This document shows, piece after piece, positions 43,842 to 51,667 of a DNA stretch of 64,000 bases (within the stretch, counting starts at the first letter, position 1; every line of letters begins with the position of its first letter). The stretch is from an uncultured Alphaproteobacteria bacterium. GTDB taxonomy: Bacteria; Pseudomonadota; Alphaproteobacteria; HIMB59. Under the pieces are notes generated by a model. It was not told the origin of the DNA, made no database searches, and worked only from the letters and a program-made list of their open reading frames with translations. A program made the position numbers and the translations under genes. The stretch covers positions 1 to 64,000 of the forward strand of contig CABWYP010000003.1 of NCBI GenBank assembly GCA_902509695.1, in the 5' to 3' direction.

Positions 43842-44783
43842 TTAGTTTGGGAATTTAAAAATATTTTTGAAATGCCAGTTAATATAGTTTTGTCGTGACT
43901 CCTCAAAAGAATAGTTGTTATAACTTACAATACTTTTTTTTATAATTGACTCTTGTCTTAATCCTAATATGTGTGAGGAAAAAATTAATTTAGATTTATT
44001 GAAAGACATAAGGCCGCTATCAAATAATTTATGAAAAGTTGGAGTTAAAATTATTCCATTAAAAGAATCGAACTCCTCTTTTTTCTTACAATATCTATGT
44101 GGCTTTATATGGCAAGCTTGTAGCAAGGGTTCAATACTAATTGTTGTAACTATGCATCTACCAAATTCATCTAATAATTTATCTCTATATTTTTTTTGCT
44201 TTATAGCATCTCTTTTCTCAGATTCTTGATTTAAATAAGATAAATTTTTATCTTTTTGATTAATGCTTTTTTCTGCAATAAATTTTCTTTTATCATAGTT
44301 GTAGTCTATAAAAGGTATAAATCTTATTACATTCTCATTTTTATAAGAATATTTAACAATTTGGAAATAACTTATAATAGGAATAAAAATTTCTCTTAAA
44401 AAAAACCAAATTTCATTACTTCCTCTTATATAATATCTACCTTTAGACTTGATAGGACCATCTTCTAAAATTATTTCCTCTTCTTCTTTGAGTTGTTCAG
44501 ATTTAAAAAAATAATCTTTGTAGTTTTCCGATATATTACCAGCGCGATAACCCATTTCTTGATTTGTATACTCATATTTAGCATCCCTTAAATATGTTAG
44601 AATGTCTTTCTTTTTAATAAAAAATTTATTTACATTTTTTTCATAGAAAAAACTATGAGTTTTGTCATTAATAGGAGATATATATAATTTAGCTTCTCCG
44701 TGACCCCTAAAGGATATAGTTTTATTGACTTTTACAAAACTATCAGCAATTTTTACATATTGAATTCTATCAATTTCTTCCAT
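43842..44783 (-). CDS. HNH restriction endonuclease (candidate type II REase)
   Basis: C-terminal GRCIVTTISIEPLLQACHIKPHRYCKKKEEFDSFNGIILTPTFHKLFDSGLMSF = HNH_2-type nuclease; start abuts C5-MTase stop. Confidence 0.82.
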   Translation of the reverse strand: MEEIDRIQYVKIADSFVKVNKTISFRGHGEAKLYISPINDKTHSFFYEKNVNKFFIKKKDILTYLRDAKYEYTNQEMGYRAGNISENYKDYFFKSEQLKEEEEIILEDGPIKSKGRYYIRGSNEIWFFLREIFIPIISYFQIVKYSYKNENVIRFIPFIDYNYDKRKFIAEKSINQKDKNLSYLNQESEKRDAIKQKKYRDKLLDEFGRCIVTTISIEPLLQACHIKPHRYCKKKEEFDSFNGIILTPTFHKLFDSGLMSFNKSKLIFSSHILGLRQESIIKKSIVSYNNYSFEESRQNYINWHFKNIFKFPN

Positions 44784-45910
44784 TATTTAATTTTATCAAA
44801 ATCGATTTGTTTTAACAAAGATATTAGAACGTTAACAACAATACTATTTCCAGCTTGTCTATACATTTGAGTGTCGCTAACGACTTGTTTAAATTTATTA
44901 GGAAACCCCATAAGCCTCAAACATTCCCTTGGAGTTAGTTTTCTAATATTTTCTCCATATGAGATATAATTATCAACACCTGCCCTGTGCATTTTATGCA
45001 TTGTAGAAACTAGTGGACGAGCAATTTCCAAATCTATTTGTGGTTTTGAATAGAAATTTTTTGTTCCTGGTGAAAGAACATATTTTTTAACCTTATCGGA
45101 TAAGAAATATTTATTTTGGTCAATGAAGTCTCCATGCCAATTAAATTGTTGATTGGACTTTTGACAAAGAGCAACGTCACCATTAATTTGAGTGTATCTT
45201 TTTTTAAGGTTTTTATCGCTAGTAACAAACTTTACTCCTTTCTCAGGTAATTTATATTTTGAATTAAATTCAATTTTTTCGAGAAGATTTTGCATTTTAA
45301 TTTTTAGCTTCTGTTTTTCAGGAAAAAAAAAATTATATTTATTTCTAAAACCAATTAAAAATAGTCTTTCCCTATTTTGAGGTACCCCAAAATCTTTTGC
45401 ATTTAATAATGAATAATGAATATCATAATTTAAGTCTTGAAAAGCTTTTAAAATAGTTTGGAACGTATTACCTTTTTGTAAACTTAATAATCCTTTTACA
45501 TTTTCATATATAAATATCTTAGGTCTTGAGTCTTTTACAATTCTAGCAAAGTCATAGAATAAGGTTCCTCTTGTATCTGCTAATCCGCCTCTTTTGCCTA
45601 CCATGGAAAAAGGTTGGCAGGGAGCTCCTCCAACAATTATATCAATTTTATATTTAAACTTTTTTCCATCTATTTTTTTTACATCATCAAACCATTTATT
45701 TTCTGATATTTTGTAATTTGCAAAATACGATTGTTTAACAAATTTGTCATTGTCAGAGGCAAATGAAATTTCATAATCATATTTTAATTTCTGAAAAGCT
45801 TGTTCTATGGCACCAATACCGCTAAAAAGACTGCCTAATCTTATAGTTTTAGTTGGTGCTCTGTTTTTAATATTTTTATTAAATATAGAAAGTTGAATTT
45901 CTTTGTTCAT
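44783..45910 (-). CDS. DNA (cytosine-5) methyltransferase
   Basis: LGSLFSGIGAIEQAF, GGAPCQPFSMVGKRGGLADTRGTLFYDFARI, FIYENVKGLLS, QNRERLFLIGF, LTPRECLRLMGFP, YRQAGNSIVVNV. Confidence 0.95.
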   Translation of the reverse strand: MNKEIQLSIFNKNIKNRAPTKTIRLGSLFSGIGAIEQAFQKLKYDYEISFASDNDKFVKQSYFANYKISENKWFDDVKKIDGKKFKYKIDIIVGGAPCQPFSMVGKRGGLADTRGTLFYDFARIVKDSRPKIFIYENVKGLLSLQKGNTFQTILKAFQDLNYDIHYSLLNAKDFGVPQNRERLFLIGFRNKYNFFFPEKQKLKIKMQNLLEKIEFNSKYKLPEKGVKFVTSDKNLKKRYTQINGDVALCQKSNQQFNWHGDFIDQNKYFLSDKVKKYVLSPGTKNFYSKPQIDLEIARPLVSTMHKMHRAGVDNYISYGENIRKLTPRECLRLMGFPNKFKQVVSDTQMYRQAGNSIVVNVLISLLKQIDFDKIK

Positions 45911-45999: not shown

Positions 46000-46548
46000 T
46001 TATAATACTAGAGCTGCACATAGGCTGTGAGCTTGATTGAGGTAGTTTTTGATATTTGTGAAGTCCCACTGTTCCTTGGGAATATCAAAATATTGTAAGT
46101 GCTCTCCTGTTATTTGCATTATCATGAGATTGTCTTGAAGCATATCTTCTGTTACATCAATGAAATACTGAGACAAAGGAACTTCTCGTGTAACGTATAT
46201 TCCTGCTATCTGTCCTAGTCCAAACTCCGTGGAATAGTTAAGAAGTGCGGGTAAGGGAGATCCTCCAAAGTTCAAATCAATACTCTTATCTTCATAAATT
46301 TCCGATAAGGGGCTTTGGATATCTTGCATGGTATAGATAAAAAAGAAGACATTAAATTTACATCCATTTTGCTTGTCAAAATTATAGTAAATCTTGTTTC
46401 CATGCTGTATTTCGCCATTTTTAGACAGTGAGATATAGTTCTCGCCTTCTCTAATTTCCCAATCATCTGCCTTTACAGGCAATACTGATAATAATAAGAC
46501 TGTCAGTAAAAAAGTTGTTTGTATTATTTTAATTGTGTTTAGTCCCAA
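46000..46548 (-). CDS. Secreted hypothetical protein, member of a local paralogous family
   Basis: Signal peptide; FDKQNGCKFNVFFFIYTM and FDIPKEQWDFTNIKNYLNQAHSLC shared with 47588..48364. Confidence 0.7.
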   Translation of the reverse strand: MGLNTIKIIQTTFLLTVLLLSVLPVKADDWEIREGENYISLSKNGEIQHGNKIYYNFDKQNGCKFNVFFFIYTMQDIQSPLSEIYEDKSIDLNFGGSPLPALLNYSTEFGLGQIAGIYVTREVPLSQYFIDVTEDMLQDNLMIMQITGEHLQYFDIPKEQWDFTNIKNYLNQAHSLCAALVL

Positions 46549-47369: not shown

Positions 47370-47591
47370 CTATTTAGGATTTGGTAGAGAGGGAGTAGAA
47401 GGCACTTGTGGTTGATCACATTGCTCCCAGTTAGCTGGAAGTTCTTGGTTGGGCCTAGTTACCCAAACGTGCGAGTAAATGGTTCCGTATTCATTACTGA
47501 AGCATTTTTTTCCAAAATGTAGTTGGCTGGGATTTTTTTCATCTGCTACATATAAAAATAGGAAAGCAGCTAAAAAGTGAATAAAAGTCAT
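47370..47591 (-). CDS. Small secreted hypothetical protein
   Basis: 73 aa with signal-like N-terminus; overlaps upstream CDS by 4 nt. Confidence 0.5.
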   Translation of the reverse strand: MTFIHFLAAFLFLYVADEKNPSQLHFGKKCFSNEYGTIYSHVWVTRPNQELPANWEQCDQPQVPSTPSLPNPK

Positions 47592-48364
47592 GTATTTAGT
47601 CCTTTCTGGGAATTCAATGACTGCGAGGCAAGGAGAGGTTCAGGGATGCGACGGCAGTGATATTCTGCTCTCTCCATAACACCTTGGATATCCTCGATGG
47701 CCCATTCATGGGTGGGAATATCAAAGAGGTTAATGAGAGGTATATTATCACCTAGTGGATGCTGGGTGACTGTAACTCGAAATCGTTTATGAAACTGGTA
47801 ATATTTTTGAACATCTTCTTTTTTATAGTGGCCTAAATTGACAAGAATAATATGTCCTCCTTTATGCGGTTGGATATGAATAACCTCTCCTTCAGTTGGT
47901 GATCCATTTTCACGAAGTTTAAGTTCTTTATTCATTAGTTTTTCAAGTTCGGGATGATTGGTCATTGTGTAAATTTCAAAAAATTGAAGAACACGGTCAC
48001 ATCTACCTTTTTGAAATCCAAATGTAAGAATTTGATTGTCTTCAAGATCACGATGGCTCTGGGCAAAAATAAACTCATCATCTAGAAATTGGATATTCCA
48101 ATTCTTAAATGTCTCGAGTGACATTGCCGAGGCCATCGTGGATAGAAACAAAGAAATTAGAGCGGGTAATCCAATCGTAAAAATAAACCTTACGGCAGCT
48201 AAGAAAAGGAAGGAGGAGCGCTGCCATAAGACCGAAAGGAAAAATGAAAAAACCCCCGCTACTCTCCTTCTATTTTTTTTATAACTGTCAAATAAATACC
48301 TGGTAGGGAATGACAGAGCATAGGAGTAGTTAGAAAAGAAAGAAGTTGAGTAAGGTCTTTGCAC
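47588..48364 (-). CDS. Secreted/membrane-anchored hypothetical, paralog of 46000..46548
   Basis: FQKGRCDRVLQFFEIYTM and FDIPTHEWAIEDIQGVMERAEYHC match blocks in 46000..46548. Confidence 0.65.
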   Translation of the reverse strand: MQRPYSTSFFSNYSYALSFPTRYLFDSYKKNRRRVAGVFSFFLSVLWQRSSFLFLAAVRFIFTIGLPALISLFLSTMASAMSLETFKNWNIQFLDDEFIFAQSHRDLEDNQILTFGFQKGRCDRVLQFFEIYTMTNHPELEKLMNKELKLRENGSPTEGEVIHIQPHKGGHIILVNLGHYKKEDVQKYYQFHKRFRVTVTQHPLGDNIPLINLFDIPTHEWAIEDIQGVMERAEYHCRRIPEPLLASQSLNSQKGLNT

Positions 48365-48419
48365 TAACTACAAACTTATTGATTAAATATAAGAAAAAAT
48401 GGGTAGAGTGAGAAAACTT

Positions 48420-49811
48420 TTAGACAGAAATAGGATTAGAAAAGAGAGACCAACCAGTCATTAATCCCCAATATAAAACAGCCATAAGCAGAAAGTAAGA
48501 CACAGGCATTATCCAGCGTAGTTTTTGATCAAGCGTATTGAAGACACCAGTTTGTTTATCTCGATGATAATCCCAATAGCTATAGACAGTAATAAAAGTC
48601 GACAAACCAGCAAAAAAGTATGAAAGTAAAATCCAGGCATCTAAAATGGTGATATAGTTTAATTTAGGAACGTCGTCACCAAAGACAAAATTATAAGCAA
48701 CGAGTGTCAATAAACTGCCCATAGAGACGGCTAACTTGGACTCAAGTTCAATAGCTCGGATGTAGAAAACGCTGAATGACAATAGTACCAAGAAGACAAC
48801 GGGTATCACGATCTTCAAAATATAATAAAAGTACTTTCTCTCTAATTCGAAATTGTAATTAATTTTCTCCAGAGTTCCTTGTTGCCCTCTTGGCTTGGGA
48901 TGACAACAATTTATATGGTGGTCAGTTATCTGCCACTCATAAAGGATCTTATTTCCTTTAATCATATTGAATTCAGGTTCGTAAAGATTAGATATGGTTA
49001 GATCTGAGTCTTGAAATATGAAATCTGATTTAGTGGATATTTTATCAAAAGGAAATTTTTGAAACTCTGATTTATTTTTACTTAAATAGTCGACTTTTTG
49101 AATAAGAGTAAAATTAAAAGGTTTGGTCTCATCATTAGTGATTAGTAAATTTTCATATTTAATATTTTCTATGGATGCACCGGTCAGAGTAGTATCAAAC
49201 CATGGATACCAGATTTTTTTTAGAATATTGTCTAGTTCTTGAGATTTTCTAAATTGACAATTTATAATTTCATCTTTTGGAATATTTAAAATTTTTTCAA
49301 GACGGTGTATTATTTTATCGTTGTTCCATTTAAGATGGATATCTAAGTCTAATTTGGTCTTACTACTTTGATGGGAAATTTCTATATCGTTAAGAATGAT
49401 ATCTGTATCTACTATGGGGTGACCAAAGTAGGAGTCTTTCACTAATTGAAATACCTCTATGCTGCCATCTTGTTTTTTTATATCTAGTTTGATATTTTGT
49501 TTTCCAGGTTTTTCTAATTTGGAGACTATTTTTTGATAAGCTTGTTTTTGATCAATTGGCAAGCGGCTATCATTAATGGCTAAAATCTCATCGCCTGGTT
49601 GTAAGTTGATTTCAGTAGAGGCCGATCCAAAACGAATTTTATCAATAATAGGTTTATTTAAATGAAGGACAATTCCTCCGTCATGATGAACAAGCTTTAT
49701 ATTGCTAGTTTCTCTAAAATCTTCTTTAAGAATTTGTTCACAAAATTGAGAAGCATAAGCAAAAGAAGCAGAAAAAATAAAAAAACTTAATAAAATAGAT
49801 CTTAAAATCAA
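48420..49811 (-). CDS. PDZ-domain fused pentameric ligand-gated ion channel (Cys-loop/pro-loop receptor family)
   Basis: Signal peptide; PDZ-like NLQPGDEILAINDSRLPID; beta-rich extracellular domain with FQKFPFD; C-terminal four TMs with RKYFYYILKIVIPVVFLVLLSFSVFYIRAIELESKLAVSMGSLLTLVAYNFVFGDDVPKLNYITILDAWILLSYFF, ungapped resemblance to GLIC M1-M3. Confidence 0.82.
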   Translation of the reverse strand: MILRSILLSFFIFSASFAYASQFCEQILKEDFRETSNIKLVHHDGGIVLHLNKPIIDKIRFGSASTEINLQPGDEILAINDSRLPIDQKQAYQKIVSKLEKPGKQNIKLDIKKQDGSIEVFQLVKDSYFGHPIVDTDIILNDIEISHQSSKTKLDLDIHLKWNNDKIIHRLEKILNIPKDEIINCQFRKSQELDNILKKIWYPWFDTTLTGASIENIKYENLLITNDETKPFNFTLIQKVDYLSKNKSEFQKFPFDKISTKSDFIFQDSDLTISNLYEPEFNMIKGNKILYEWQITDHHINCCHPKPRGQQGTLEKINYNFELERKYFYYILKIVIPVVFLVLLSFSVFYIRAIELESKLAVSMGSLLTLVAYNFVFGDDVPKLNYITILDAWILLSYFFAGLSTFITVYSYWDYHRDKQTGVFNTLDQKLRWIMPVSYFLLMAVLYWGLMTGWSLFSNPISV

Positions 49812-49812
49812 T

Positions 49813-50277
49813 TCAAACTGATTTTAACACACTCTTAATTTTTGACAACTGATCGTCAATTTTTTGTATGACTTGGTATATTTGCTCTTTTTCAGAGGGT
49901 ACAATTTTAGTACCACCTGAGCTTTTCTCATCCATAGATTCTAAGATACTGTCATTAAGGTCCCCTACACGACCTCCAATGCCCATTACCTCAGAGAGAA
50001 CCTCATGTTCAGTTCTTGGTTTTTCGGTCAGTGGTGTGTTTAGACTATCTTTAAGAAATTGTGAGAAAGGCGTTTTTTGATAAAAGCGCTGCATGGCATG
50101 TTCTAAAGATACAACATCTTTAAAATGAATATGGCGATCATGATCATCAGGGTCAGCACATTTATAAATATATGACTTAGACTTACCTGTAATTTCTTGA
50201 ATATCTTGATCGCTTAAGTTTTTTAAGACTTCTTGGAGTGTGTGCTCGATGGAGATAATTTCTTTTGTTTTAGACAT
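49813..50277 (-). CDS. HTH/phage-CII-like regulatory protein
   Basis: LSDQDIQEITGKSKSYIYKCADPDDHDRHIHFKDVVSLEHAM resembles CII-type HTH; 1 nt upstream of channel gene. Confidence 0.65.
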   Translation of the reverse strand: MSKTKEIISIEHTLQEVLKNLSDQDIQEITGKSKSYIYKCADPDDHDRHIHFKDVVSLEHAMQRFYQKTPFSQFLKDSLNTPLTEKPRTEHEVLSEVMGIGGRVGDLNDSILESMDEKSSGGTKIVPSEKEQIYQVIQKIDDQLSKIKSVLKSV

Positions 50278-50382: not shown

Positions 50383-50700
50383 ATGAATAAAAATCATATC
50401 GTTCCTACACTGGGAGAAAGCTCATCACCTACCAGGAAAGAACCTCAATCACAATTAGGTGTCGAGCAGTATCTAAGCACCCTATCAAAAACTCGCCAAG
50501 AAAAAGAAATTTCCTTGGAAAAAGTTATAGAAAGTCTCAATTTTTCACGAAGTACGCTTGAGTCTTTGGAGCAAGGTAATTTAAATTTTATCCAGTATCC
50601 CTTAAACTATTTTTTTACTCGCCAATATGCTCAATATCTTAAAGTACCCTTTCCAAAACAATACCTAATGACTCATTTCAAACCGAGGGACAGAAGCTAA
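50383..50700 (+). CDS. RodZ-like helix-turn-helix protein (no TM)
   Basis: EQYLSTLSKTRQEKEISLEKVIESLNFSRSTLESLEQGNLNFIQYPLNYFFTRQYAQYLKV (HTH_25-like). Confidence 0.7.
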   Translation: MNKNHIVPTLGESSSPTRKEPQSQLGVEQYLSTLSKTRQEKEISLEKVIESLNFSRSTLESLEQGNLNFIQYPLNYFFTRQYAQYLKVPFPKQYLMTHFKPRDRS

Positions 50701-51221
50701 TGAAAATATTACTTTTATTCTTAAGTTTATTTATAGCTAGCTGTATAGGCCCCGGCAACGCAAAAGACATACATGAATTTGAAAATTGGGTTCATCGTAG
50801 TGATAGTAATAATAATATTGATTTAGTTTATAATGCTGAAAACCCCTATAAATCAGTAATTTTTGTTGTTGATCCCTCTATCGGATGTGACGCCCGATTG
50901 GTTTATACAAATATTGAGTTAGAAGAAATTGATTTATCCTCACTGAACGGAGAAAAGTTTGATTGGCAATTGTCTGGTGTTCTTTATAAAAGCGAGGATG
51001 CCAGTAAACTTAATACAAATGGCTACACCCGTTTTGAGTTAATTAGTTTTTATAAACATCATTTTGAAGAGCTTGAAGAGCTCCTTGCAACTCAAGGTAT
51101 TATTAGTTTTTCAGTCGTCGATCCTTTAAATAGATTTGAGCCCCAAAGTGTCCAGCATCAAGCTAATGGATTAAGTCAGGCCTTGGGAAATGCTTTGGAT
51201 AGTTGTCAAGGATGGACATGA
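50700..51221 (+). CDS. Putative lipoprotein, distant member of the secreted paralog family
   Basis: Lipobox LFIASC; single internal GCDARLVYTNIEL and C-terminal ...ALDSC block. Confidence 0.65.
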   Translation: MKILLLFLSLFIASCIGPGNAKDIHEFENWVHRSDSNNNIDLVYNAENPYKSVIFVVDPSIGCDARLVYTNIELEEIDLSSLNGEKFDWQLSGVLYKSEDASKLNTNGYTRFELISFYKHHFEELEELLATQGIISFSVVDPLNRFEPQSVQHQANGLSQALGNALDSCQGWT

Positions 51222-51667
51222 TAAAAAAGATTTATTTATCTTTAATAATTATAAGTATGTCATGGCAAGCTTCTTCCCAAAACCTTCAAGGTAAGGTTTA
51301 TGTTTTAGGATCTATTGACCAAGAGTTAAAGTTATTATTTGAAAAAACTATCACTCAAGAACTTCATGATTATGCTCAAAATATCTCTTTGAATTCAAAT
51401 TCTCATATTTATGTATTTCCTTACCAAGATAATCAAAGTTGGAGGGTTGTAAGCTTTCATATTGAGGGAGATCACCACCATGAAGAAATATCTCAATTAG
51501 AACTCCAAGGAATCCCGCTTCAATCACTTGATCAAATTCGAAATATAATTGGACTTGATGGGTCTCTCAAATACATTGGATGGAATGACTACACCGAACT
51601 TCCTCCTGAACAAATTTTTCTAGCATCCAGAGTCATTGCTCAAAACTATTTTTTCTTGCATTTTTAA
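51203..51667 (+). CDS. Secreted hypothetical protein
   Basis: Signal peptide MIKKIYLSLIIISMSWQASS; overlaps preceding CDS by 19 nt. Confidence 0.6.
   Translation: MSRMDMIKKIYLSLIIISMSWQASSQNLQGKVYVLGSIDQELKLLFEKTITQELHDYAQNISLNSNSHIYVFPYQDNQSWRVVSFHIEGDHHHEEISQLELQGIPLQSLDQIRNIIGLDGSLKYIGWNDYTELPPEQIFLASRVIAQNYFFLHF

Follow-up and report, generated by a model that had tools for sequence, protein, structure and literature searches.

The stretch of DNA analysed here (the window, 64,000 nucleotides) contains an open reading frame that was originally predicted to encode a PDZ domain fused to a bacterial pentameric ligand-gated ion channel (pLGIC). The predicted frame of 463 aa stands in length and position, and its strand can now be added. 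The gene is read on the minus strand from 49811 to 48420, and the plus strand of this interval is full of stop codons. The locus comprises the following features:

48420..49811 (-), PDZ-pLGIC channel gene, 463 aa, TTG start, stop TAA at 48420-48422 (ORF and homologs)
49749..49811 (-), signal peptide, residues ~1-21 (hydrophobic N-terminus ending in AYAS before Q22, helix in the AF2 model; cleavage site approximate)
49695..49748 (-), N-terminal helix with conserved Cys24, residues 22-39 (conservation of C24, helix in the models)
49434..49694 (-), PDZ domain, residues ~40-126 (PF00595, PDB profile search, Foldseek, order of secondary structure)
48837..49433 (-), pLGIC ligand-binding domain (LBD), residues ~127-325 (AF2, Foldseek; W201/P203, W293 and R325 conserved)
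49044..49064 (-), pro-loop FQKFPFD, residues 250-256 (sequence; F253, P254 and D256 invariant)
48903..48908 (-), vicinal cysteines C302-C303 at the start of loop C (26/26 PDZ-clade sequences)
48459..48833 (-), four transmembrane (TM) helices, residues 327-451 (Neur_chan_memb, LGIC_1, AF2 helices)
48741..48743 (-), Glu357, position -2' of the pore helix (register to GLIC E222 in a gapless alignment; invariant in relatives)
48423..48458 (-), C-terminal tail after M4, residues 452-463, ending in I-S-V (disordered in AF2)
48418..48425 (-), conserved nucleotide element GTCTAAAA, spanning the last codon and the stop
49813..50277 (-), 154-aa partner gene, 1 nt upstream of the channel (ORF; homologs adjoin channels in many loci)
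47588..48364 (-), 258-aa exported or membrane protein downstream of the channel, syntenic, no Pfam/NCBIfam match

The host genome measures 1.0 Mb and is 65% complete. Within the genus, full-length relatives with 50–78% identity and conserved flanks occur in independent single-cell genomes, which excludes an assembly artefact. The host belongs to the HIMB59/AEGEAN-169 group, its same-genus relative AG-891-G06 (L024) being a HIMB59 single-cell genome (PMC10734472). The genomes of the host group are streamlined, and a conserved multi-gene channel locus in them implies a real function.

The make-up originally claimed for the protein (signal peptide, PDZ domain, LBD with the FQKFPFD motif and four TM segments) is borne out by profile searches, AF2 and Foldseek, and we regard it as nearly certain. 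For the channel body, the NCBIfam model LGIC_1 matched residues 249–437 (6.9e-19, under its full-length cut-off), while Neur_chan_memb stayed below cut-off in the window protein and exceeded it in orthologues. Phmmer against the PDB returned DeCLIC (2.6e-14), 6fl9 (2.1e-13) and GLIC (~1e-11). The AF2 model (mean pLDDT 80, pTM 0.71) combines a beta-sandwich LBD with TM helices at residues 327–350, 356–379, 389–418 and 426–451. Foldseek with this model gave 876 hits at E≤0.001, with ELIC as the best (2.6e-17) followed by GABA-A, GLIC, GlyR and DeCLIC. The Cys-loop LBD/TM fold, on which the prediction hinged, was thus found by both HMM and structure searches. P203, F253-P254, D256, R325 (pre-M1), P337 (M1 Pro), E357 (-2') and L368 (9') are invariant in 24 relatives, and W201 is nearly so. 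The cysteines flanking the pro-loop in animal receptors are absent; the mature protein has only four cysteines (C24, C185, C302 and C303), none of which flanks residues 250–256.

The protein had also been laid on GLIC from M1 to M3 without gaps. The GLIC string is exact (PDB residues 220–253) and no gaps are needed (8/34 identities), but the stretch compared begins in the M1–M2 loop and ends where M3 starts, and one of the quoted strings is a residue longer than the other. The GLIC register does place Glu357 at -2', as claimed. The -2' Glu and the anionic P-A-R motif are marks of selectivity in this family, and the presence of the former and absence of the latter fit a channel that is probably cation-selective.

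The window protein alone scores under the Pfam cut-off for PDZ. PF00595 matches 19/20 orthologous fragments at E≤0.1 (best 2.8e-10), and the orthologue L032 lies above cut-off both for PDZ (37.0 vs 23.2 bits) and for Neur_chan_memb. A PDZ-only profile searched against the PDB hit, among others, DegP, harmonin and the tandem PDZs of an RseP homologue, and a full-length profile run over genomes of the class and phylum picked up, at model positions ~27–150, the PDZ segments of CtpA-, RseP- and DegP-type proteases. AF2 modelled the PDZ alone with low confidence (pLDDT 62), and Foldseek returned CtpA/DegS/DegQ/RseP for this model (best E 0.012). Residues ~40–126 are accordingly supported as a PDZ domain by three lines of evidence: the cut-off passed by L032, the PDZ-only profile and the weak PDZ-only model. 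The secondary structure in AF2 follows the PDZ order (E40-42 E47-49 E55-59 H64-67 E75-79 H88-100 E105-112 E118-125). A Gly in the expected carboxylate-binding loop (D-x-G-[IV]) is invariant, and this putative loop and its groove may bind C-termini. The domain is under purifying selection (dN/dS ~0.05–0.17 in the least saturated divergent pairs). The N-terminal regions of the channels L030, L037, L039, L040 and L083 resemble degenerate PDZs by eye; profile tests were non-significant.

The PDZ segment could have been merely the start of the LBD. This is ruled out by L033 and L034, two PDZ-less channels that are syntenic with the window locus, agree with the PDZ channels in N-terminal helix and LBD, and lack exactly this segment of ~85 residues. 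A helix of the 'C..LL....REES' type is common to the PDZ channels and L033/L034. In the tree, the PDZ channels are monophyletic (99/99), and L033/L034 are their sister group (96/93). As PDZ-less sisters exist at the same locus, the core function does not require the PDZ, and channels with and without it at one locus offer a natural control for the effect of the domain. C24 is nearly invariant, and since C24 and C185 are both conserved whether or not the PDZ is present, they probably form a disulfide.

Homologs of the channel were found in 35/163 genomes of the order. The search for proteins with the same domain order showed that the fusion recurs across the genus (HIMB59/AEGEAN-169 marine Alphaproteobacteria), with a clear orthologue in 27/52 genomes plus one fragment in G143. 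No PDZ fusion was present outside the genus among 395 sampled class genomes and 399 phylum genomes. None was seen in phages, which gave no match, or in plasmids, which gave one distant pLGIC. Several long channels in the class and phylum samples have N-termini that look, by eye, like periplasmic-binding proteins. The original prediction knew of no described PDZ-pLGIC fusion, and our literature search, with preprints and most subscription journals outside its scope, likewise returned no report, its matches being animal receptors and general pharmacology. Bacterial pLGICs with additional N-terminal domains are known; the genomes and literature searched suggest that a PDZ in this place is new.

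DeCLIC (PDB 6v4a, 9ftg) is the best PDB sequence match from the pro-loop to M4 and is likewise a bacterial pLGIC with an additional periplasmic N-terminal domain. It had been named as an example of such domains. Its N-terminal domain, with NTD1/NTD2 lobes (PMC12664993), is much longer and has no match to the PDZ region of the window protein, and its M1–M2 loop is 2 residues shorter. GLIC and ELIC share the LBD/TM fold and the pro-loop, and GLIC also the -2' Glu, but both lack an N-terminal accessory domain and a cysteine pair near loop C. Known N-terminal fusions of pLGICs comprise PBP-I, Cache and MCP-N domains besides that of DeCLIC. In the PBP-I, Cache and MCP-N fusions a periplasmic accessory domain also precedes the LBD, yet these domains bind small molecules, whereas a PDZ typically binds peptides or C-termini. 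The PDZs of CtpA, RseP, DegP and DegS match in sequence profile and fold, but are attached to proteases and not to an ion channel.

The channel and the 154-aa gene are probably co-translated, because only one nucleotide separates them. The 154-aa protein has no confident Pfam/NCBIfam match, and its gene, constant at ~154 aa, is a recurrent partner of channels of the order, across families f1 and f2. Small exported proteins of no known family flank the channel in synteny (46000-46548, 47588-48364, 50700-51221 and 51203-51667) and are possible partners of the PDZ. The C-termini of the operon partners were considered as PDZ ligands, and a convincing conserved pattern was not found in them. The 51203-51667 protein is the only neighbour that keeps an aromatic end, [YF]-[FL]-x-[FLY]-x-F.

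At paralogue loci and loci of relatives (L030-L032, L035, L037, L039, L041 and L083), the gene of a PrsW-family intramembrane metalloprotease (PF13367, 1e-25 to 1e-34) adjoins or overlaps that of the channel. This adjacency spans three families of Alphaproteobacteria, and a literature search on a PrsW-pLGIC pairing gave nothing relevant. Genes for PrsW beside pLGICs are:

L030:11915-12739, PrsW
L035:3389-4204, PrsW
L037:2564-3367, PrsW
L039:2631-3299, PrsW
L083:2931-3584, PrsW

PrsW is absent from the window locus, which has the exported proteins without known family instead. It was rejected as an obligate partner of the channel, 8/13 PrsW loci in the genus having no recognisable adjacent channel. 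One recurrent PrsW locus of the genus (L089-L091, L093, L094) has, by eye, apparent ECF sigma/anti-sigma genes and two exported proteins.

We propose that the protein forms an inner-membrane homopentamer of the pLGIC type. Each subunit would carry one periplasmic PDZ, inserted between the Cys-bearing N-terminal helix and the first LBD strand, and the five PDZ modules would most likely be membrane-distal like the N-terminal domain of DeCLIC. Their ligands may be the C-termini or exposed peptides of proteins in the periplasm or envelope, and occupancy of the PDZ by such a ligand would modulate gating, which the LBD would execute. As a whole we give this reading a probability of about 0.45. That peptide binding affects gating is a reasonable inference. 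The fusion further suggests that the ligands belong to the class of peptides or protein tails, which can be screened directly, and that a relative of the neurotransmitter-receptor ion channels with a PDZ in front may be regulated by protein tails in the periplasm.

The PDZ might instead be a tether or assembly module that binds an envelope protein or the operon partners and leaves gating unaffected. The close PDZ-less relatives have the same locus and partner genes, and sequence change is faster in the PDZ than in the pore (32–57% vs 74–94% identity between the window protein and four orthologues), as a partner-binding module might. However, the conservation of C24, before the PDZ, together with C185 of the LBD suggests that the PDZ is anchored on both sides rather than dangling freely, and the N-terminal domain of DeCLIC is reported to speed gating (PMC12664993). 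We find a pure tether somewhat less likely than a role in gating. The protein could also be a non-conducting receptor that uses the pLGIC fold to signal through partners, and related channels of the order do adjoin PrsW proteases, a signalling context. With M1–M3 as the most conserved part, the -2' Glu and 9' Leu invariant as in a working pore, and a window locus devoid of PrsW, we consider this the least probable of all readings.

Two further alternatives concern the C-terminal tail and loop C. The tail ends in [ILV]-x-V in 17/17 full-tail orthologues, the last residue always being V, the -2 residue I, L or V and the neighbours variable. This fits a class II PDZ ligand, and the tail is expected to be periplasmic like the PDZ. 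Binding of the tail by the PDZ might act as an internal latch on M4, within one subunit or between adjacent ones. Yet the final Val codon is always GTC and lies inside GTCTAAAA. GTCTAAA occurs in 19/21 relatives and GTCCAAA in the remaining two, and the element is kept even out of frame (L033) or non-coding (L045-L048), so that the unchanging Val at the end of the protein gives no evidence of selection for a peptide ligand. Moreover, the L045-L048 lineage keeps the PDZ and has no tail, and AF2 leaves the tail unplaced. Self-binding is thus very improbable; GTCTAAAA is possibly a regulatory or RNA-processing element ahead of the downstream gene. In L045-L048 the M4 region is strongly diverged with an early stop, and a tail-like stretch that ends in I-V remains downstream of the new stop, ahead of GTC(T/C)AAA. 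Near loop C, H298-x3-C302-C303 is invariant in H, C and C throughout the PDZ clade despite codon variation (Cys TGT/TGC), and the other two mature cysteines are the likely C24-C185 pair. Gating of the LBD by metal or redox at this motif, with the PDZ secondary, is conceivable, the site itself being a guess from these residues, and we think it distinctly unlikely. Like nAChR alpha, the window protein has a pair of adjacent cysteines between the final two strands of the LBD. With the beta9 Trp and pre-M1 Arg as reference points, its pair lies ~6–7 residues closer to beta9 than that of nAChR alpha, and the cysteines of the Cys-loop are lacking. Homology of the two pairs was judged unlikely on this register, leaving a loose analogy at most. 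The consecutive-cysteine dyad was described by Tasneem et al. as restricted to a subset of animal cation channels (PMC549065).

Modulation of the channel by PDZ-bound peptides could have a wider meaning. The pLGICs of this group might be sensors of envelope stress, where the PDZ-gated channel would read exposed C-termini of proteins in the periplasm like DegS, and its PrsW-adjacent relatives would turn opening into regulated proteolysis. We see this as a long shot. If true, it would be the first physiological role for bacterial pLGICs; a 2016 survey stated that no biological role was known for any pLGIC of a unicellular organism (PMC4795631).

Downstream of the channel locus, the region 43842-45910 (-) holds what looks by eye like a restriction-modification pair, with an apparent C5 DNA methyltransferase and, after it, an HNH-like endonuclease.
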